DNA of 34,394 nt, taken from IMG/VR virus record IMGVR_UViG_3300009175_000043, positions 1 through 34,394 of that record; one strand, 5' to 3'. The stretch is from a virus. The notes beneath the pieces are model-generated. The model made no database searches. It was not told the DNA's origin and saw nothing but the letters and a program-made list of their open reading frames with translations. Shown in pieces: positions 1,912-33,358 of this stretch (positions are counted from its first letter, which is position 1; the number at the start of each line of letters is the position of its first letter). The translations under genes were made by a program, and so were the position numbers.

Positions 1912-2778
1912 TTAGACTGTCGCTACATTACCTTCCATGTAACGCGATACCATTGCATCGACGAACGCTTTGCAATTGTCCTCGGTGATGTTGTTGCCAA
2001 ACCCATACTGCAGGGCATCGACCTCGATGACGTCGTCACCATCGACCTTGACGTTCATTGGGGTGCCGTAGCTGCAACCGTAATAGCGATTGAACTCAGC
2101 TTGATCTCGCTTCTCGAAGAACCGGAAGAACAGCCGGCGCAGGACCGATGCGTTGCACAGCATGTAGGCTAGTCGATCCATCTCGACGGGCTGGCTCGCT
2201 TGCTTGATGACGACTGTCGTCGATGACCCAGCTTCACCATCCCTACATGTCCCGCAGGCCAGCACAACCTCGCAGCGCAGGCCGGATTGTTCGATCAGAT
2301 CCACCAGCATGACAGCCGCCGCACCCCTCATGAACATCTGCTCGGTGGATATGGCGCTAGATGCTGCCATGTTGAACACAACCTTGACCACACGACCAGC
2401 AGCGGGGACTTGTTGAACCTCCCAGTCGATCATGTGCTCAGACTCGCCGGTCATGTAACGACCGATGTCAACCTCGTCGCCTGCTTCAGAGTAGCGGCAG
2501 AAGTGGCGGTCAGCCTTGTCGCCGTGCAACTGCTTGAGTGTGCCGGTCAGTGCCTTGATCCTTGCCAAGCCAGTCTCCCAGCCCCTTTCAGCCAAGGCAA
2601 TCGCATCCTCAAAGCATCCAGTGCCAAACCAGTTAGCCTTGCCAACGACGTCACTCCGGTTGGTAATCCCTTCCGCCAGTGCGCCAGGCCGCTTGATGTC
2701 ATCCATGAATGCCTCAAGCGAATCGAAGCTCGTTGTCAGGCAGCGGTCAGTGGACAGGCTCAGGTAGTCAGTGCTCAC
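1912..2778 (-). CDS. Partner protein of the MoxR-like ATPase (phage DUF7192-like, tentative)
   Basis: A 288-residue protein. The GTG start overlaps the TGA of the upstream AAA+ gene (GTGA), with AAGGAGG as ribosome binding site, so the two are made together. The N-terminus has the pattern S-hydrophobic-F-D, a W-F-G-T step, A-x-x-L-A-x-x-G-W-x-x-G, and a central segment (MRGAAAVMLVDLIEQSG) that fits a Rossmann-like or von Willebrand A-like core. MoxR/CobS-type ATPases are usually encoded beside such VWA-like partners, and phages carry a comparable pair. No complete MIDAS motif is evident, so the assignment rests on context. Confidence 0.65.
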   Translation of the reverse strand: MSTDYLSLSTDRCLTTSFDSLEAFMDDIKRPGALAEGITNRSDVVGKANWFGTGCFEDAIALAERGWETGLARIKALTGTLKQLHGDKADRHFCRYSEAGDEVDIGRYMTGESEHMIDWEVQQVPAAGRVVKVVFNMAASSAISTEQMFMRGAAAVMLVDLIEQSGLRCEVVLACGTCRDGEAGSSTTVVIKQASQPVEMDRLAYMLCNASVLRRLFFRFFEKRDQAEFNRYYGCSYGTPMNVKVDGDDVIEVDALQYGFGNNITEDNCKAFVDAMVSRYMEGNVATV

Positions 2779-14549: not shown

Positions 14550-14884
14550 AGCGCCTTCTGTTTATTGTTCCTGCTAAAATCGTAGTCATCGATACCGTTG
14601 GCCTTGGCGACCTTCACGGCGGTCTTCCAGTCGCGACCGTAGCCGAACAGTCGAAAGAATGTGTGGTGACCTTGATGGCCGTCGAAGTTTACATGGCCGC
14701 TCAACGTTCGCTGGGGCGGTGCGTTGACCCTCCGAACCTCGTTCACTCCGAGTTGGCAGCGCATCCATTCATAGCGCGAATCAATGAACATGAAGTGCCT
14801 GGACTCGCACTGGGTCTGCTTCTTGGCGTCCTCCTCCGTTATGACGGTTGGCGTGGCGGTCTGCAATACTAGCTCTACATTCAT
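14546..14884 (-). CDS. Hypothetical protein, 112 aa
   Basis: First gene of the transcript that starts in the 14885-15263 gap. ATG 14884 follows AAAGGAACAGA. It has Arg/His-rich segments (RHFMFIDSRYEWMRCQLG, then GHQGHHTFFRLFGYGRDW). No family recognised. It is coupled to the next gene by an ATGA-type overlap. Confidence 0.65.
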   Translation of the reverse strand: MNVELVLQTATPTVITEEDAKKQTQCESRHFMFIDSRYEWMRCQLGVNEVRRVNAPPQRTLSGHVNFDGHQGHHTFFRLFGYGRDWKTAVKVAKANGIDDYDFSRNNKQKAL

Positions 14885-22371: not shown

Positions 22372-22566
22372 TTATTGCAGGTTTCGTGAGACCCACTCTT
22401 GCAGGTCCACTGGACGAATGCCTACGGTTCGATGTCCGAGCCTCACAACTTGCAACCGCTGGTGCGCTGGCGTCTTCTTGCTGGCTTTCAGGCGTAGAGT
22501 CCTGACAGAGCACTTCAAGGGACGTAGGGCTTCCACAGCTTGCTTATATGTGAGAAGACCGATCAT
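22372..22566 (-). CDS. HTH protein (excisionase/AlpA-like)
   Basis: ATG 22566 overlaps the TGA of the RHH gene (TGATG). The 64-residue product begins with a MerR/excisionase-type helix-turn-helix (LLTYKQAVEALRPLKCSVRT) and continues RLKASKKT...VGIRPVDLQEWV, the usual wing-like end of phage Xis or AlpA proteins. It heads the leftward operon within 1.2 kb of attP and int, so an excision directionality or regulatory role is plausible. Confidence 0.7.
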   Translation of the reverse strand: MIGLLTYKQAVEALRPLKCSVRTLRLKASKKTPAHQRLQVVRLGHRTVGIRPVDLQEWVSRNLQ

Positions 22567-22739
22567 CAAATCAGGTTGGCTTGTTTTTGGAGGTCGTTGT
22601 GAATGATTACCCGGAGGTATGCCGACACGCTCAAGCCTAGCGACTTGGCTCGTGCTTTGACCTTCTTTTGAAGTTGTGGCTGGAAGTGGACGGATACTAC
22701 GGATTCATTTTTGAGTGGAGTTATTTTTTTGGTTTTCAT
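22566..22739 (-). CDS. Ribbon-helix-helix regulator (57 aa), leftward
   Basis: ATG 22739 gives MKTKKITPLKNESVVSVHFQ with strand VVSVHFQP, helix LQKKVKARAKSLGLS and helix SAYLRVIIHNDLQKQ, i.e. the RHH (Arc/CopG) fold. It is the first gene of the long leftward early transcript, about 28 nt from the -10 at 22767-22772. The divergent gene at 23001 encodes another RHH protein, so they form a candidate regulatory switch. Confidence 0.65.
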   Translation of the reverse strand: MKTKKITPLKNESVVSVHFQPQLQKKVKARAKSLGLSVSAYLRVIIHNDLQKQANLI

Positions 22740-22766: not shown

Positions 22767-22794
22767 AATATAGTGCCTCTAATATACAGGACAA
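22767..22794 (-). promoter_or_regulatory. Early leftward promoter with operator-like palindrome
   Basis: Minus strand: TTGTCC (22789-22794), 16-nt spacer, TATATT (22767-22772). The spacer holds an imperfect palindrome (CCTCTAATATACAGG on the plus strand) containing the same ATATTAGAGG as the promoter at 15133-15161. It would drive the RHH, HTH and recombination genes. Confidence 0.6.
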
Positions 22795-22912: not shown

Positions 22913-23000
22913 TGACATCGAACTGGCGTTGGATTCGTATGGGGGACGGAAAACGCTTGTGGCTATGAAAAACATTAAACTAAACAAAAAAGGCAAAAAC

Positions 23001-23225
23001 ATGATGACGAACCAAACATTAACCGCGCCGCATATAGGGCCTGGAAAAAAAATCACCACCCTTTACACAGACGCAGAGCTTCACGCCGCCATCAAAGAGC
23101 GATCCGACGACCTTGGCCTGTCAATGTCCCAATACATCGTCAACCTCGCCTTGGCCGACCTTCAGAACGACGGCAAATCTTTTTCGATCTCTTCCCGCAA
23201 GGTCGCGACGCGCAAGCCGGAGTAA
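23001..23225 (+). CDS. Ribbon-helix-helix regulator (74 aa), rightward
   Basis: ATG 23001 is chosen because AAAAGG lies 7 nt upstream; the frame is open to 22929. After a short arm the product shows ITTLYTDAELHAAIKERSDD and LGLSMSQYIVNLALADL: the beta strand and two helices of an Arc/CopG RHH domain, followed by a basic tail. It is transcribed towards attP and int from the promoter at 22884-22912, and is the best candidate for the lysogeny-side regulator. No CI-like repressor is visible in the window. Confidence 0.75.
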   Translation: MMTNQTLTAPHIGPGKKITTLYTDAELHAAIKERSDDLGLSMSQYIVNLALADLQNDGKSFSISSRKVATRKPE

Positions 23226-23432: not shown

Positions 23433-23477
23433 CTCATAACCTGAAGGCCGTAGGTTCAAATCCTACCCCCGCAACCA
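23433..23477 (+). other. attP core: 3' part of an initiator-type tRNA gene
   Basis: 45 bp read CTCATAA (anticodon loop, CAU), CCTGA (3' anticodon stem), variable loop, T-arm GTAGG-TTCAAAT-CCTAC, acceptor strand CCCCGCA, discriminator A and CCA. The 5' stem that should pair with CCTGA is lost immediately upstream (TCACT), so tRNA identity begins at the anticodon loop, a usual crossover site for tyrosine integrases. The acceptor end CCCCGCAACCA matches bacterial fMet tRNAs. Phage genes lie on both sides, so this is attP, not attL/R. Confidence 0.75.
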
Positions 23478-23661: not shown

Positions 23662-24765
23662 ATGAGAAAACAGAAAGTTACCAAGGTTGTGGTTCACGGG
23701 ATCGAGCGTTGGCTGGTCCATTGCCCAAAAGAATTAAGGGAGATGCACGGCCAATCCCGGTATTATTTTGCGCGAAAAGAAACTGCTGAGGCTAAGCTCG
23801 CACAGTTCCAGCGGGATCACGACCGGATTGCCGCGAGGTTCCACGGTCTTTCCGAGAAAGATCAGGGCCGCATACTTTGGTTGCTTGAGAAGTTTGGAGG
23901 CAACCTGGATCTCATGGAGTCCGTTTACATGGGGTATTTCAACAAGATCAAGGCCACCAAGGTAGCGATACCTTTAAAATCGACGATTGAGACATTCATC
24001 AAGGCCAAGGAGGCCGCAAACTTGCGCCCCAGATCGATAAAGGCGCTCACGAGTGTTCTCGGCAAGCTTTGCATCTGCCTGGGCGACAACGCCGACGTCA
24101 CCAAGGTTACTGATGATCAGATCGAGAAGTGGTTATCTGGGAACGCATGGGAGCCGGCCACACGGAAAGGATACCTCACCGACGTGAGAACATTCTTCAG
24201 TTGGTGTCTCGGCAAAGGGTTCATCGACAAAAACCCAGCCATGTCCATCCAGAAGCCAAAAATCGATGAAAAAAGGGCTGACATTCACACCCCGGAGGTT
24301 GCCGCGCTGATGATGAATACGGCCATGAAGCACGACAAAGGTCTCGTTGGCTACCTGGCTCTATGCTATTTCGGGTTCGTGCGACCCTCTGAAGCTCTGA
24401 TATTTACGAAGAATCAGATCAAGGATACCGTTCTGGACCTCGAGGCCGGCAAGACCAAGACCCGGGCGACTCGCTACGTGGAGATCAATCCAACCTTAAA
24501 AGCGTGGCTTGATGTCAAAGGATTAAAATTTCCGGTCACAAATTTTAAACGACGCTTCGATGCTTTAAGGGATCTCGAAGAATTGAAAGATGTCAAATGG
24601 GGTCATGACGTCCTGCGTCACTCCTGTTCATCCTACGGGCTGATCAAGTTTGGCGGACAGAAGGCTTCAAACTGGGCCGGCCACAGTGAGGCCGTGCTGT
24701 TCAAGCATTACCGCGAGCGTGTGACAGCAGATGATGCGGAAAAGTTTTGGTCGATACGACCTTGA
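23662..24765 (+). CDS. int: Tyrosine recombinase (phage integrase)
   Basis: A 367-residue protein: N-terminal arm-binding part, SAM-like core-binding domain (about 105-190; SIKALTSVLGKLC ... DVRTFFSWCLGKGFIDKNPA) and catalytic domain. Visible active-site residues are Arg in FGFVRPSEAL, the HxxR box in HDVLRHSCSS, a late Gly/His segment (NWAGHSE) and the Tyr nucleophile in FKHYRERV. Length and order are typical. attP lies 185 nt upstream. It converges with the small membrane gene, with 2 nt between the stops. Confidence 0.93.
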   Translation: MRKQKVTKVVVHGIERWLVHCPKELREMHGQSRYYFARKETAEAKLAQFQRDHDRIAARFHGLSEKDQGRILWLLEKFGGNLDLMESVYMGYFNKIKATKVAIPLKSTIETFIKAKEAANLRPRSIKALTSVLGKLCICLGDNADVTKVTDDQIEKWLSGNAWEPATRKGYLTDVRTFFSWCLGKGFIDKNPAMSIQKPKIDEKRADIHTPEVAALMMNTAMKHDKGLVGYLALCYFGFVRPSEALIFTKNQIKDTVLDLEAGKTKTRATRYVEINPTLKAWLDVKGLKFPVTNFKRRFDALRDLEELKDVKWGHDVLRHSCSSYGLIKFGGQKASNWAGHSEAVLFKHYRERVTADDAEKFWSIRP

Positions 24766-24767
24766 GT

Positions 24768-24908
24768 TCAATTCCTGCCATTGCGACCAATAAACTCGTA
24801 GTCATCTGTGGATCTGCTGCAACCTTTGACCATTCCCATGAGCATTCCAAAGAGGCCAAGGCAGATAAAGGTCACGAGCAAAAAGTTCATAATCTTGGAT
24901 GAATTCAT
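24768..24908 (-). CDS. Small membrane protein (46 aa), possibly leaderless
   Basis: ATG 24908 reads MNSSKIMNFLLVTFICLGLF and on to GMLMGMVKGCSRS: one hydrophobic helix (~8-28) and a polar tail. A promoter (24916-24945) ends 7 nt before the ATG, so the message could start at the start codon; there is no spaced ribosome binding site. It lies downstream (leftward) of the candidate regulatory RNA locus at 25137-25242 and antiparallel to int. A toxin-like peptide controlled by that RNA is conceivable. Confidence 0.5.
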   Translation of the reverse strand: MNSSKIMNFLLVTFICLGLFGMLMGMVKGCSRSTDDYEFIGRNGRN

Positions 24909-24945: not shown

Positions 24946-25105
24946 ACCTCTGCATACCCCCCTAGCCCCCCTTAACACCTTTCGGCATTAAGAAGGTTCC
25001 AAGGGGTACCCCGCACGGCCATTATTTGAATTCCAGGCAACGCCAGTCAACTTTGACTGCCTCTGTTTACTCAGTAGGAATATCCGACTGGAGCATTTTA
25101 TACTG

Positions 25106-25232
25106 TTGCTACCAATGAACAGAGTTGGATGTGCGGAAAAAGAAAACCCGCCATTGGTAGCACAATGAGCGGGTTTGGGAGGGTGGTGTGCTGATCACAC
25201 CGAAATTCTTAACTCGAGCTTGTGCTACCAAG
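25106..25232. repeat. Three complementary GCTACCAA repeats (A, B, C)
   Basis: In leftward transcript order: A at 25219-25232 (CTTGGTAGCACAAG), B at 25152-25167 (CATTGTGCTACCAATG) and C at 25106-25117 (CATTGGTAGCAA). B is complementary to A over 12 nt and to C over 11 nt. This is the same order and logic as seqA/seqB/seqC of satellite phage P4 immunity. Confidence 0.6.
25137..25176 (-). terminator. Rho-independent terminator of the candidate RNA
   Basis: AAACCCGC (25144-25151) pairs with GCGGGTTT (25169-25176), with inner CATTG/CAATG pairs and a 6-nt loop. On the minus strand it is followed by TTTTCTTTTT-type sequence (to 25137). The hairpin is long and G+C-rich at the base, as in an efficient terminator. 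Confidence 0.7.
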
Positions 25233-25242
25233 ACATCGAACT
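25137..25242 (-). ncRNA. Candidate ~106-nt regulatory RNA
   Basis: A leftward promoter at 25249-25277 predicts a start near 25242, and a Rho-independent terminator ends near 25137. The RNA would fold into hairpin A (CUUG-GUAGCA-CAAG), a middle stem (25185-25201, GGTGTG/CACACC) and the terminator hairpin whose apex is CAUUG-UGCUAC-CAAUG. The six-base loops of the first and last hairpins are perfect complements, allowing a kissing interaction or an antiterminator fold. No open frame is evident in it. I infer an immunity, attenuation or antisense RNA. Confidence 0.55.
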
Positions 25243-25248
25243 GTTGAG

Positions 25249-25277
25249 AACATATTGTGTGAATATTAGAAGGTCAA
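25249..25277 (-). promoter_or_regulatory. Leftward promoter of the candidate RNA
   Basis: Minus strand TTGACC (25272-25277), 17-nt spacer, TATGTT (25249-25254). The spacer starts with TTCTAATATTC, again containing the TCTAATA/TATTAGA core seen at 15144, 22776 and 22893. This suggests co-control with the early promoters. Confidence 0.55.
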
Positions 25278-25357
25278 CAGGAAAAAATCACAAAACTTCA
25301 AAACAATTGTAGGTGTATACGCACAAGCGCCGACGGTTTGTAACGCGCAAATTGATA

Positions 25358-25393
25358 TTGACCTGTCACAAAAACGTATACATATTTGTGACA
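25358..25393 (+). promoter_or_regulatory. Rightward promoter overlapped by a 30-bp operator
   Basis: TTGACC (25358-25363), 17-nt spacer, CATATT (25381-25386). A perfect inverted repeat TGTCACAAA (25364-25372) / TTTGTGACA (25385-25393) with a 12-nt spacer centred on GTATAC covers the spacer and -10. An ATG at 25396 begins a 41-codon frame (to 25521) of uncertain reality, antisense to the next gene; otherwise no rightward gene follows soon. Divergent to the RNA promoter at 25249. Confidence 0.5.
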
Positions 25394-25448
25394 ACATGCC
25401 TCCGACGCCTCTTCACAATGCGCACCAGCGGGGGTCTTTTATTGTTCG

Positions 25449-26687: not shown

Positions 26688-26764
26688 TGGTTGCAGAGGT
26701 CGGATTTGAACCGACGACCCCCTGGTTATGAGCCAAGTGAGCGACCAAACTGCTCTTCTCTGCG
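26688..26764 (-). tRNA. Initiator-type tRNA (CAU anticodon, C1:A72)
   Basis: 77 nt with encoded CCA. Acceptor CGCAGAG / CTCTGCA gives the unpaired C1:A72 that is the hallmark of bacterial fMet tRNA. The D stem GAGC/GCTC contains A11:U24, also initiator-specific. The anticodon arm is CTTGG-CTCATAA-CCAGG and the T arm GTCGG-TTCAAAT-CCGAC. The three G:C pairs typical of initiators are only two here (U29:A41 replaces the third). The sequence differs from the attP core, so it is not an att duplicate. Confidence 0.9.
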
Positions 26765-27924: not shown

Positions 27925-28152
27925 ATGTCAAAGATGACCCCAGAGCAGCATCAAGAATTCGTCCGTAAGGTTGGGAACCGGCTTGTCGAGTATTTTGATG
28001 GTTTTGCCCTGGTTGGTTATCACGCAACCAACGGGGATCGCATCATCATCAGTCACGCCAAAGACCTGAAGACCTTGGATGCGCTACGGACTGCCATGGT
28101 TACAGCAGCGCAACCCGTCGCAATTGACAACGGAGAGACCGGGAAAGTATGA
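27925..28152 (+). CDS. Hypothetical protein, 75 aa
   Basis: The product starts MSKMTPEQHQEFVRKVGNRL, has a central strand pair (FALVGYHATNGDRIIISHA) and a helix. It ends at an ATGA overlap with the large terminase gene. Similar small genes often lie between the terminase subunits; the role is unknown. Confidence 0.65.
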   Translation: MSKMTPEQHQEFVRKVGNRLVEYFDGFALVGYHATNGDRIIISHAKDLKTLDALRTAMVTAAQPVAIDNGETGKV

Positions 28153-31049
28153 GCGCCATCGATCTTGATACACCGCCGCCGCTACCAGGACCGCGGAAAA
28201 CAGCCAAGAAGTCCAAAGAATGGGCTCCAGCGCTCAACCCAACGCAACAGCTTGCATTTGACTCGGTTGCAAAGTTCGTTTTGCTGTACGGTGAAAAAGG
28301 GTGTAGGTCGGGCAATTCATTAATTTACACCAATGATGGCCTTGTGCGCCTTATCGACCTTAAACCTTGGATTGCTGAGGAAGGAAGTTTCATCCCTATA
28401 AATCAAAAGGTTATTGCATTTGATGGCCAGAAATTGGTTGAAGATAAAGCAGTTGGATTTTGGGTCGAGCCTAGCTATGAAGCAATCAAGGTTGAGCTTT
28501 CAAATGGGGCAGAAATAACAGGATCCCATCGGCATCCGCTTTGGGTATGTTGGCAAAAACGTGACGGATCTCACGACTTTGGGTATGTCAAGTTTAGCGA
28601 AATGAAAACAGGATTGGCTCAAGGAACCCGCTACTGGACCCCGTTTCTGGGGCATCCACAATGGCTGGGGGATAGTCCGACTTTTGCCGCTGGGGTTCAA
28701 ATCACCAAGGAACTGGCCTATACTATCGGGGCTTTAGTGGGAGACGGGTCTTTAAATATTTTCACAGGCGACGGCAGAAGCGCTGGGTTTTCCAATATCG
28801 ACGAAGAATGTCTTAATGAAGTTAAAGCGGGGCTTGGCCAGATAGGCTGTAAGCTTTCGGGCTCAGCAGCAAGCAAATGTGATTATAATATTATCGGAAA
28901 CCAAAAGTTTTTCAGGCGTTTCATTAAAGACCTGAACATAGGCCAATTGTCGTACCACAAGACGATCCCATCACAAATTATAAGTGGATCGAAAGAAATC
29001 GTAAGGTCATTTTTGCAAGGCTTGTTTGATACTGACGGAACGGTTGAAAAAAACGGGTTAGTGTCTTTTTGCACTACAAGCATTAAACTTTCAAAAGACG
29101 TTCAAGACGTTCTCGCAGCATTCGGAATATTATGCGTTAGACGTCCAAAGAAAAGCGCCAGCGGAAAACCTACATGGACGCTATCAATAATGGGCAAACA
29201 TGCCTTTAATTATGGAAATTTGATCGGTTTCAAAATCGCAAGAAAGCAAGCAAGAATCATAAAACCAAAAGTATCCGCATTATGCCCAAATGGATTCAAT
29301 CATAATCATTACGGGTTTCCGGATCCAATCCGGATGGTAATGAAAGGCGTTGCCCTTGGGTCAAGAACAGGAAACAGAAATAGGGCTTGGCATGACTTTC
29401 ATAGGCATTTGCATTCTTTCAAAAGTATACCGGCCCCCGAAAAAGTTGACGCATTCTGCAATTTGTATGAGTGCCATTCAAAAGTTGCCCAGTTTAGAAC
29501 CAGCAACCATTGGCTGGAAATATTGTCATGCGAGGATGTTAAATGCCAACTTTACGACCTGAACGTCAAAAATAACCACAGTTTCTTGGCGTCTGGAACA
29601 ATTAACCACAATTCCGGAAAAACGGTCGGCGTAGCTCATGCTTGCGTCCGCCATGCTTACGAGAATAGGGATGCCTTCTGCATGTTGATCGCCTTGACGA
29701 TACGCACAGGCAAAGAAGGTATCTTCCACGACCTTGAAAGCCTTGTGCTGCCGGCATGGCGGGATGGCAACAAGGAGCCTGAATACGTCAACGGCGAAAA
29801 AAACCCCCGGGCTGGTGAATTATTGGATGAAGGCATGGGGCTCGAGTATACAGCCAGTCAGCAGGACCCTGACACCAAGGACCGCGTTATATGGGTGCGC
29901 AACATGCACAACACCTGGTCAAAGATACTTCTGGTATCTATTCCCTACGCCGAGGCGGTTGATACCCGTATCCGCGGCCCTGCCCCATCGTTTGTGGGTG
30001 TCGAAGAAATTACACTGGCTTCCAGCGACGAGTATTTCAAATATCCAGCAGCCCAGCTTGGCCGCCGTCGTCACATCACCGGACCTCAACAGTTCTACGC
30101 ATCCTGCAACCCGGAAGGCCCGAGCCACTGGGTTTACAAGACATGGTGGGTTGATTGCATCGATGATAAGACCGGCAAGCGTGATTCCGACTATGCTGTT
30201 TTTCACGTCAAAGCCACGGAAAACATCGACAGGCTGCCAAAGGGTTACATTGAAAACCTCGCCAAGATCCTCAAGGACCCTATCGAGCGCCGACGGCTGA
30301 TCAACGGCGAGTGGGTGGACAGGCCCAGCGGTCAGTCAATTTTCAAGAATTACTTCATGCCGAACATTCATGTCATCGGCGATGGACTCCGGAACATTGG
30401 GTGGAAGCCTCTTAAGGGGTTTCCGCTAATTGTGGGATACGACCCCGGCCCAGCAAACTTTAGCATCTCAATGCTTCAGCATGTCCCCACCAAAGAGAAA
30501 AACCTCTGGATCGTGTTCGATGAGTTGAACTTTGTCGGTCAGCATACCCCTTACCACGTCGTTGTGCCCAGGTTGCTGAGGCGGATGGACATGTGGAAGG
30601 ACGAGATCGACGCCCCGGTCACGTGGGTTCATATCGGCCCGGATGATGCTTTCAGTCACATGCGCCACGATGGATCCTTCGATGCTTCAGAGATTGAGCG
30701 ACTGTCCAAAGGCAGGATCAAGATGAGAGGCACACCTCAGGCTGGTGGAAGCGTTGCGCAGCGGGTTACCATGTTGATAGGACATCTTTTGGAGGAAACG
30801 ATCTACTTTTCAGCTACAGCGCCCAAGACAATCGACATGATGAGGATGCTTGCGTCGACAAAGGCCGACCCCAAGAAATACGATCCAGATGCCGGCTTGA
30901 AGCCAATGAGATCGGTCTACCTTCACTCGTTTGACTCACTAACTTACCCATTGTTCTACTATCAACTAAACTCCGGAAGCTTACCGTCCAGCGCCGCCCG
31001 CGACATCCCTGCCAGGGTCTACGAAGCTGGGGTTGGCCTTTTAGGTTGA
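28149..31049 (+). CDS. terL: Terminase large subunit interrupted by an intein
   Basis: The 966-residue precursor splits into N-extein (1-51), intein (52-488) and C-extein. Joined, the extein is 529 residues and carries the Walker A GEKG|SGKT at the splice site, a Walker B-like FVGVEE, an ATP-coupling region (FYASCNPEGP), and nuclease acidic residues in VGYDPGPAN and IGPDDAF. It powers DNA packaging into proheads and cuts the concatemer. The intein must be removed before the ATPase can work. ATGA coupling with the preceding gene supports this start. Confidence 0.92.
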   Translation: MSAIDLDTPPPLPGPRKTAKKSKEWAPALNPTQQLAFDSVAKFVLLYGEKGCRSGNSLIYTNDGLVRLIDLKPWIAEEGSFIPINQKVIAFDGQKLVEDKAVGFWVEPSYEAIKVELSNGAEITGSHRHPLWVCWQKRDGSHDFGYVKFSEMKTGLAQGTRYWTPFLGHPQWLGDSPTFAAGVQITKELAYTIGALVGDGSLNIFTGDGRSAGFSNIDEECLNEVKAGLGQIGCKLSGSAASKCDYNIIGNQKFFRRFIKDLNIGQLSYHKTIPSQIISGSKEIVRSFLQGLFDTDGTVEKNGLVSFCTTSIKLSKDVQDVLAAFGILCVRRPKKSASGKPTWTLSIMGKHAFNYGNLIGFKIARKQARIIKPKVSALCPNGFNHNHYGFPDPIRMVMKGVALGSRTGNRNRAWHDFHRHLHSFKSIPAPEKVDAFCNLYECHSKVAQFRTSNHWLEILSCEDVKCQLYDLNVKNNHSFLASGTINHNSGKTVGVAHACVRHAYENRDAFCMLIALTIRTGKEGIFHDLESLVLPAWRDGNKEPEYVNGEKNPRAGELLDEGMGLEYTASQQDPDTKDRVIWVRNMHNTWSKILLVSIPYAEAVDTRIRGPAPSFVGVEEITLASSDEYFKYPAAQLGRRRHITGPQQFYASCNPEGPSHWVYKTWWVDCIDDKTGKRDSDYAVFHVKATENIDRLPKGYIENLAKILKDPIERRRLINGEWVDRPSGQSIFKNYFMPNIHVIGDGLRNIGWKPLKGFPLIVGYDPGPANFSISMLQHVPTKEKNLWIVFDELNFVGQHTPYHVVVPRLLRRMDMWKDEIDAPVTWVHIGPDDAFSHMRHDGSFDASEIERLSKGRIKMRGTPQAGGSVAQRVTMLIGHLLEETIYFSATAPKTIDMMRMLASTKADPKKYDPDAGLKPMRSVYLHSFDSLTYPLFYYQLNSGSLPSSAARDIPARVYEAGVGLLG
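28302..29612 (+). mobile_element. LAGLIDADG intein in the terminase P-loop (437 aa)
   Basis: The first residue is Cys (CRSGNSLIYTNDG, block A); block B is ITGSHRHPL. Two LAGLIDADG-type motifs (IGALVGDGSL and LQGLFDTDGTV) mark the homing endonuclease; the end is ASGTINHN followed by Ser (block G, +1 Ser). Insertion between the Gly and Ser of GEKG/SGKT places it at the most conserved point of the ATPase, typical for inteins. It is more A+T-rich than the flanking extein, suggesting a separate history. Confidence 0.93.
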
Positions 31050-31708: not shown

Positions 31709-33358
31709 ATGATTAATTTGGATATTTTAAATCGGTTTGGGACGACAAATAAGCGGCTTCGCGAGCTTTACACCGCCAACGCCACCAACATTCCCAAGAT
31801 CGAGCGAGGCGATACCGCTGAGGAAAAGGCTGAGAAGAACAAGATCGCATTGCGCATCAAGCAGGACATTGAATTTCGACAGAATACCGAGCGCCGCATC
31901 CGCGTCCGGGTTGATGAAGGCATCACCAGATCGTTGAGAAATTACAAGAAGTATGCCGCTGCAGACCTGGCTTGGGACACCAGTTGCGTCACTGAGGCCA
32001 CAATACCATTGATCATGTATGCCCAGGGCAAGATCAACATTGAGTCCGCAGCTACAGCTCTGCAGGGGCTTAGGGGTGGGTCTGACTGCATTAAAAAAAA
32101 TGCTGAAGGTGCCGCAATAGCGATTGATCTCCCCCGTTTCCTCGAGTGCAACATCAATCTTGTTCGGTCCTACATTAGCCGGCGTGTGGCTGCCCAGTCC
32201 AACATTTTTTCAAAGCTGTATCCATACTACAATTACGAGTCTCGCTCCACCGGCCCTGTGGGTAAGCTGCGGGCCGACGTCCTATCCCAGCGGGTAGAGA
32301 TCATGTCTGACCAGTTCGACTACCGACACCATGACGTGCAGTGCATCCGAGACGGCTTTCTGTATGGGCATTGCCTTGATTTTCCAGCATCCGCATGGGA
32401 GGTCGAAAAGCAATGGACGTTCAAGGATTACTCGGATGAGATGAAATCATCCCAGCCACCTGAGGATAATTCTGATCTTGAGGCTGAGATCGTTAAGGAA
32501 GGCATCTCATGGATTAACCCGCACCCCAGCAGGGTGTTTTGGGACAACGCATCACCTCTTTCCAGCATCAACACGGACACCGGCTGCAAGTTCTTGGGGT
32601 ATTGGGACATCCAGCGCTACCGGGACGTCATGAACAACCCTGCGTTTTTCAATCTGGATACCATTGGTTGGTCTACCCGATTCTGGGGTCCCGGTGGGCT
32701 TTATTACAACTATAAGGCGTATTTTGATCAATACACCACGGCAATCAAACCACCCGCTTTCCCCCAGGGCACAAACATTGACCCAGCCAGCGAGAACGAC
32801 CGATCAGCGAACATCGGCACCTACAATGTGCAGTTGGATGACGCATCGATATTCGTCACCAACTATTTTGAGCAACTGGTCCCGAGTGAAAACGGCATTG
32901 GTGAATACCCATTCCCGGTGTGGATCCGCTACATTGTGGCCTCTGACGCCACGGTTGTTTACGCTGAAATCTACCCATCCACCCCAGCCGCATACCTCGG
33001 TATCAACGAGAACGACTCACGGCAGGTCAACATTTCCATGGCTCACGAGCTGATGGCCTATCAAGATCAGCTCACCAATTTATTCCGCCAGATGCTAACC
33101 ATCGCATCCGGGGAAGTTTTCAAAGCCATCGGGATCAACACGGACGCCCTTGAGCGTGCGCAGGTCGACAAGATCTTTTTAAAGCTCAGCGGTCAAGACT
33201 GGTCTGGAGACCCGTTGATCTATGAATTTTCGCTAAAGAAGCTGCAAGAGCTGCAAATCAAACCCGACCAGGTTGTTACAGTCACAGAAACCCGCATTGG
33301 CCAATCTCTCACCGCCATCTTCGAATCAATGGCGAAGTTGATTGCAATGGCGGACTAG
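31709..33358 (+). CDS. Portal-like protein
   Basis: A 549-residue protein directly after the terminase block. It has a long basic N-terminus, a mixed central domain and features seen in tailed-phage portals: FLECNINLVRSYISRRVAAQ, a wing-like region with many aromatics (FWGPGGLYYNYKAYFDQYTT) and a C-terminal helical part (HELMAYQDQLTNLFRQMLTI ... KPDQVVTVTETRIGQSLTAI). It would form the dodecameric DNA entry ring. The stop is TAG, followed by CTT and the ATG of the next gene in the same frame. Confidence 0.7.
   Translation: MINLDILNRFGTTNKRLRELYTANATNIPKIERGDTAEEKAEKNKIALRIKQDIEFRQNTERRIRVRVDEGITRSLRNYKKYAAADLAWDTSCVTEATIPLIMYAQGKINIESAATALQGLRGGSDCIKKNAEGAAIAIDLPRFLECNINLVRSYISRRVAAQSNIFSKLYPYYNYESRSTGPVGKLRADVLSQRVEIMSDQFDYRHHDVQCIRDGFLYGHCLDFPASAWEVEKQWTFKDYSDEMKSSQPPEDNSDLEAEIVKEGISWINPHPSRVFWDNASPLSSINTDTGCKFLGYWDIQRYRDVMNNPAFFNLDTIGWSTRFWGPGGLYYNYKAYFDQYTTAIKPPAFPQGTNIDPASENDRSANIGTYNVQLDDASIFVTNYFEQLVPSENGIGEYPFPVWIRYIVASDATVVYAEIYPSTPAAYLGINENDSRQVNISMAHELMAYQDQLTNLFRQMLTIASGEVFKAIGINTDALERAQVDKIFLKLSGQDWSGDPLIYEFSLKKLQELQIKPDQVVTVTETRIGQSLTAIFESMAKLIAMAD

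Follow-up and report, generated by a model that had tools for sequence, protein, structure and literature searches.

We analysed a 34,394-base IMG/VR virus record, IMGVR_UViG_3300009175_000043, whose entire length we refer to as the window. The window encodes a large terminase (28149–31049) with an intein, inside which lies a LAGLIDADG-like endonuclease domain, and a portal-like gene (31709–33358) that is named by its adjacency to the terminase and has no family match. A leftward DNA-metabolism (early) operon runs on the minus strand from 22739 down to 101 and has its own promoter candidate at 22794–22767. At the head of this operon lie two divergent genes for small ribbon-helix-helix-like proteins (22566–22739, minus strand, and 22929–23225, plus strand), and this is the likelier site of a lysis–lysogeny switch. 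The tyrosine integrase gene int (23662–24765, plus strand) adjoins a 3′ half of initiator tRNA-Met (23433–23477, plus strand) that resembles an attP site and is probably the attP core, and the phage also carries a full tRNA-Met at 26688–26764 on the minus strand. Integrase matches among phage records come only from Akkermansia phages, at about 25% identity, so the host is perhaps a member of the Verrucomicrobiota; the attP core also suits many Proteobacteria, and a search with a degenerate query, whose first base is not in the window, identified the site as the 3′ half of initiator tRNA-Met without fixing the host.

Between int and a metallophosphoesterase-like gene, the latter assigned by motif reading and without a family match, lies a predicted small RNA unit on the minus strand. 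As the initial annotation of this DNA had proposed, a leftward promoter-like site (TTGACC-17-TATGTT, 25249–25277, 9 of 12 consensus matches) and a Rho-independent terminator bracket a short RNA. That annotation put its length at about 106 nt; we place it at 25137–25243, about 107 nt between the promoter and the end of the U-tract, and both its fold and a covariance-model homologue support it. In order from the promoter, the unit comprises a 5′ hairpin, UUG-GUAGCA-CAA, here termed A (25220–25231, loop 25223–25228); a middle hairpin, GGUGUG-AUCAG-CACACC (25185–25201); a C/U-rich single-stranded linker, ACCCUCCC (25177–25184), which could pair with Shine–Dalgarno sites; and a terminator hairpin of 8 bp, a 1-nt bulge, 5 bp and a 6-nt loop, followed by the U-tract (25144–25176). 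The terminator loop, UGCUAC, termed B (25157–25162), is the complement of the A loop. A simple terminator scan missed this bulged hairpin, and folding recovered it: the predicted energy of the 107-nt RNA is −34.8 kcal/mol, compared with −23.6 ± 3.4 kcal/mol for shuffled sequences (z = −3.3), and none of 200 shuffles is as good. Leftwards from the RNA are a putative 46-aa hydrophobic ORF (24768–24908, minus strand) and the strand antisense to int, tail to tail, both positioned as first described. An early suggestion of a type I toxin is not supported, as the RNA lies upstream of the ORF on the same strand rather than antisense to it, and a search among phage records found no homologue of the ORF.

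Complementarity between A and B extends beyond the loops. The B segment TTGGTAGCACAA (25154–25165) is complementary to the A segment TTGTGCTACCAA (25220–25231) at 12 of 12 positions with a spacing of 54 nt, and a third copy, C (CAUUGGUAGCA, 25107–25117, minus strand), about 20 nt beyond the U-tract, is complementary to positions 25152–25162 of B at 11 of 11, bearing out the three repeats reported initially. A and B form the sole perfect 12-nt inverted repeat with a 20–120-nt spacer in the whole window. We estimate that about 0.25 such repeats would be expected there by chance, and therefore neither the A/B pair nor the anatomy is decisive alone. A match to B of at least 8 nt within 60 nt downstream has a chance of 0.5% by shuffling, so copy C, too, is unlikely to be accidental.

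A search with the portal-like protein led to a related phage, at 62% identity, that is represented by two records (L021 and L022); only the contig of L022 (IMGVR_UViG_3300044680_000100) covers the relevant region. A covariance model built from the window RNA alone, R1, matched this contig at 14700–14806 (L185:701–807) with an E value of 8e-4 in 404 kb and of 4.4e-5 within the relative's record. The relative's RNA reproduces the anatomy seen in the window, with a 5′ hairpin, a middle hairpin, a similar linker and a terminator, and its promoter (TTGACA-18-TAGAGT) has the same placement relative to the RNA. Global alignment of the two RNAs gives a Z score of 6.3, and of 3.3 when the terminator is omitted; a gapless alignment joins the terminators, each with 8 bp, a single bulged base, 5 bp and a 6-nt loop. 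Compared in loop register, the A and B loops change from GUAGCA/UGCUAC in the window to GGUAAG/CUUACC in the relative, such that both members of five of the six pairs differ and pairing is retained at all six. Double changes also affect all five pairs of the upper terminator stem and two of the six pairs of the middle hairpin. By count, the distance from the start of the A loop to the terminator is 52 nt in the window and 54 nt in the relative; in a MAFFT alignment the relative's A loop is offset by two columns. The A hairpin of the relative is weaker, with a 12-nt loop.

Loop complementarity of this kind is rare among comparable hairpins. In 2.1 Mb of other sequence, only 5 of 311 terminator-like hairpins (1.6%) have a 6-nt complement of the loop region 46–60 nt upstream, and an exact loop complement at a fixed offset (±3) would occur in an estimated 0.2%. 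Because the unit is conserved in a second phage, it is more than a chance arrangement in the window. With two members, the covariation amounts to one comparison; together, the conserved unit, fold and complementarity make a good case for a functional RNA with A–B pairing, and the RNA itself is very likely real. The covariation in related phages that the initial annotation had offered as a check of its three-part design thus appears in part: the A and B loops are compensated, and C is absent, as complements of B do not exceed 7 nt within the 400 nt downstream of the relative's RNA. The genomic settings also differ, the relative's RNA lying inside the early leftward operon and that of the window beside int.

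On balance we lean, modestly, towards a self-contained phage non-coding RNA gene that acts in trans. In this model, a moron-type gene with its own promoter and terminator would produce an RNA of about 105 nt in which the loop of the 5′ hairpin kisses the loop of the RNA's own terminator hairpin. The closed kissing-loop fold would leave the middle hairpin and the C/U-rich linker exposed, and the RNA would act on another RNA or on a protein rather than as the leader of the next gene. In the window only, copy C could capture B in read-through transcripts, which would make it a local addition outside the conserved design. Comparison of the two sequences shows the unit, the conserved fold and the retained A–B complementarity, from which we infer transcription, kissing in the cell and action in trans. 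Kissing-loop hairpin pairs such as ColE1 RNAI/RNAII and TAR/TAR* are among the closest known counterparts of A/B, which in the window likewise form a pair of hairpins whose 6-nt loops are fully complementary. Unlike in those systems, both loops in the window are part of one RNA, one of them belongs to an intrinsic terminator, and the context is not that of plasmid-type replication. The unit also resembles autonomous small RNAs that phages carry as morons, in that it has its own promoter and terminator and occupies differing positions in two related phages; the RNA described here differs in matching no sequence family and in conserving an internal loop–loop complementarity. Most known phage small RNAs belong to phages that infect a small number of well-studied bacteria. 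The kissing-loop RNA was found in a phage lineage that is uncultured, and it falls into no RNA family; its terminator loop serves as a pairing partner that compensatory change has preserved, and the compensated pairing offers a clear and cheap mutational test.

The initial annotation had likened the locus to the seqA/seqB/seqC immunity region of satellite phage P4, and a P4/C4-like immunity RNA is a rather unlikely account of the unit. Here the B loop of the mature RNA would act in trans, pairing with the A and C copies on newly made transcripts from the same promoter and causing early termination and thereby blocking a superinfecting or induced phage. In the window, A, B and C do surround the terminator in P4-like order, and the P4 CI RNA itself brings about termination by pairing with an upstream sequence, seqA, and a downstream one, seqC (PMC4825925). 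The RNA resembles P4 CI and P1 C4 in that termination is involved and that it is complementary to an upstream copy and, in the window only, to one downstream as well. Rfam models recover the P4 immunity region, used as a control, with C4 (RF01695) at 74.9 bits, isrK (RF01394) at 60.8 bits and c4-a1b1 (RF03163) at 44.1 bits, the last just below its cut-off, whereas the window region matches none of the three even at E ≤ 10. The seqA-like and CI RNA matches in P4 are about 150 nt apart, whereas A and B of the window lie in one RNA of about 107 nt, with the B hairpin forming an intrinsic terminator. Nor does the unit lie at the head of an early operon: directly downstream are the 46-aa ORF and the antisense strand of int, with the early operon another 2.4 kb away and behind its separate promoter candidate. 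Membership of the P4 family is therefore not supported, since there is no Rfam match, C is absent from the relative, the location differs and no controlled operon is evident downstream; what stands of the likeness is the layout in the window.

Attenuation in cis, in which an A–B antiterminator competes with the terminator hairpin to set read-through into the 46-aa ORF and antisense int, appears unlikely. Predicted energies leave room for such a switch. The terminator and A–B folds are nearly equal in both phages (−34.8 versus −32.9 kcal/mol for the 107-nt window RNA, and −36.7 versus −36.0 kcal/mol for the relative), and a 143-nt window RNA favours the 12-bp A–B duplex with loss of the terminator, at −43.5 kcal/mol against −39.1 kcal/mol when the terminator is forced to form, as a cis switch would require. 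Against this, the two RNAs occupy different genomic places and therefore have no common downstream gene, making a shared cis target unlikely. The A–B core of the relative is also just 6 bp, or 8 bp counting two wobbles, and the unit has no recognised ligand-binding or leader-peptide feature.

A second candidate RNA gene lies about 160 nt away on the opposite strand. An abiF-like RNA (RF03085; 25399–25435, plus strand) scores 35.6 bits against a cut-off of 37 and diverges from the kissing-loop RNA. Ahead of it is a plus-strand promoter-like site (25358–25386), overlapped by a 15-nt inverted repeat, TGTCACAAAAACGTA/TACATATTTGTGACA (25364–25393), that is possibly a repressor operator. Among 195 Verrucomicrobiota genomes, nine contain an abiF RNA above the cut-off, and in five of six such genomes checked an Abi_2 gene match starts about 110–140 nt downstream of it. 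No Abi_2 gene was found in the window record. Phage MW202647 presents a similar picture: its abiF RNA (MW202647.1, 45725–45761; L242, L244) exceeds the cut-off at 40 bits, no Abi_2 gene was found across the complete 47.6-kb record, and the phage also encodes a distant relative, at 35% identity, of the window's neighbouring gene. The window sequence at 25399–25435 is likely an abiF antitoxin RNA that stands as an orphan, with no AbiF gene beside it in the record. An abiF RNA of Clostridioides difficile neutralises AbiF in trans (PMC12373285), and an orphan phage copy could serve as a decoy against host AbiF defence. Such a decoy, if confirmed, would target a protein family that has been linked to Cas13 ancestry.

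Extending this idea to the whole of 25137–25435, as a counter-defence RNA cassette pairing an orphan abiF antitoxin against AbiF with a kissing-loop RNA against a second RNA-dependent defence, seems improbable. That the kissing-loop RNA itself is a decoy or antitoxin against such a host defence, forming one cassette with its neighbour, is more doubtful still. The divergent abiF-like RNA in a record without an Abi_2 gene and the known trans action of abiF RNA favour this reading. Searches with R1 and R2 in 388 Verrucomicrobiota genomes returned only ordinary gene terminators without a loop complement; no convincing relative of the kissing-loop RNA was found there and hence no defence locus for it to mimic, and the relative's record has no abiF RNA. 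That the unit is an ordinary terminator with fortuitous repeats is most improbable: a 12-nt inverted repeat alone is not rare in 34 kb and the R1 and R2 matches in bacterial genomes are ordinary terminators, but the homologous unit of the second phage has altered yet complementary loops.

The kissing-loop RNA appears to form a family of its own, matching no RNA family and having two members so far. Searches with R1 were negative in 17 other phrog_3657 relatives, in the record of L017, in phage MW202647 and in 40 portal relatives at 34–40% identity. A genome scan with the phrog_3657 alignment gave no match, and integrase and ATPase scans gave no relatives. Absence elsewhere is weak evidence, because viral records are often fragmentary and strict filters were applied in the genome search. 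A pattern search for the terminator and linker returned the same relative only (IMGVR_UViG_3300044680_000100). Exact A...B DNA patterns gave 15 IMG/VR matches, all of them either coding-like sequence or inverted repeats unrelated to this one; when the RNA was compared with phages by blastn, the matches were all short and weak and lay mostly in terminators; and a Trp_leader match (18.8 bits, E = 0.54) was merely a terminator. Separately, the early operon of the relative carries a long tandem repeat of GGTCGTGGTCGC-like units (L022, about 1935–2120, minus strand). A family of viral contigs (L002, L003, L005, L006, L008 and L012) contains a perfect TTGGTAGCAC...GTGCTACCAA inverted repeat flanking a conserved interval of about 55 nt, and the likeness of its letters to A and B is probably a coincidence.
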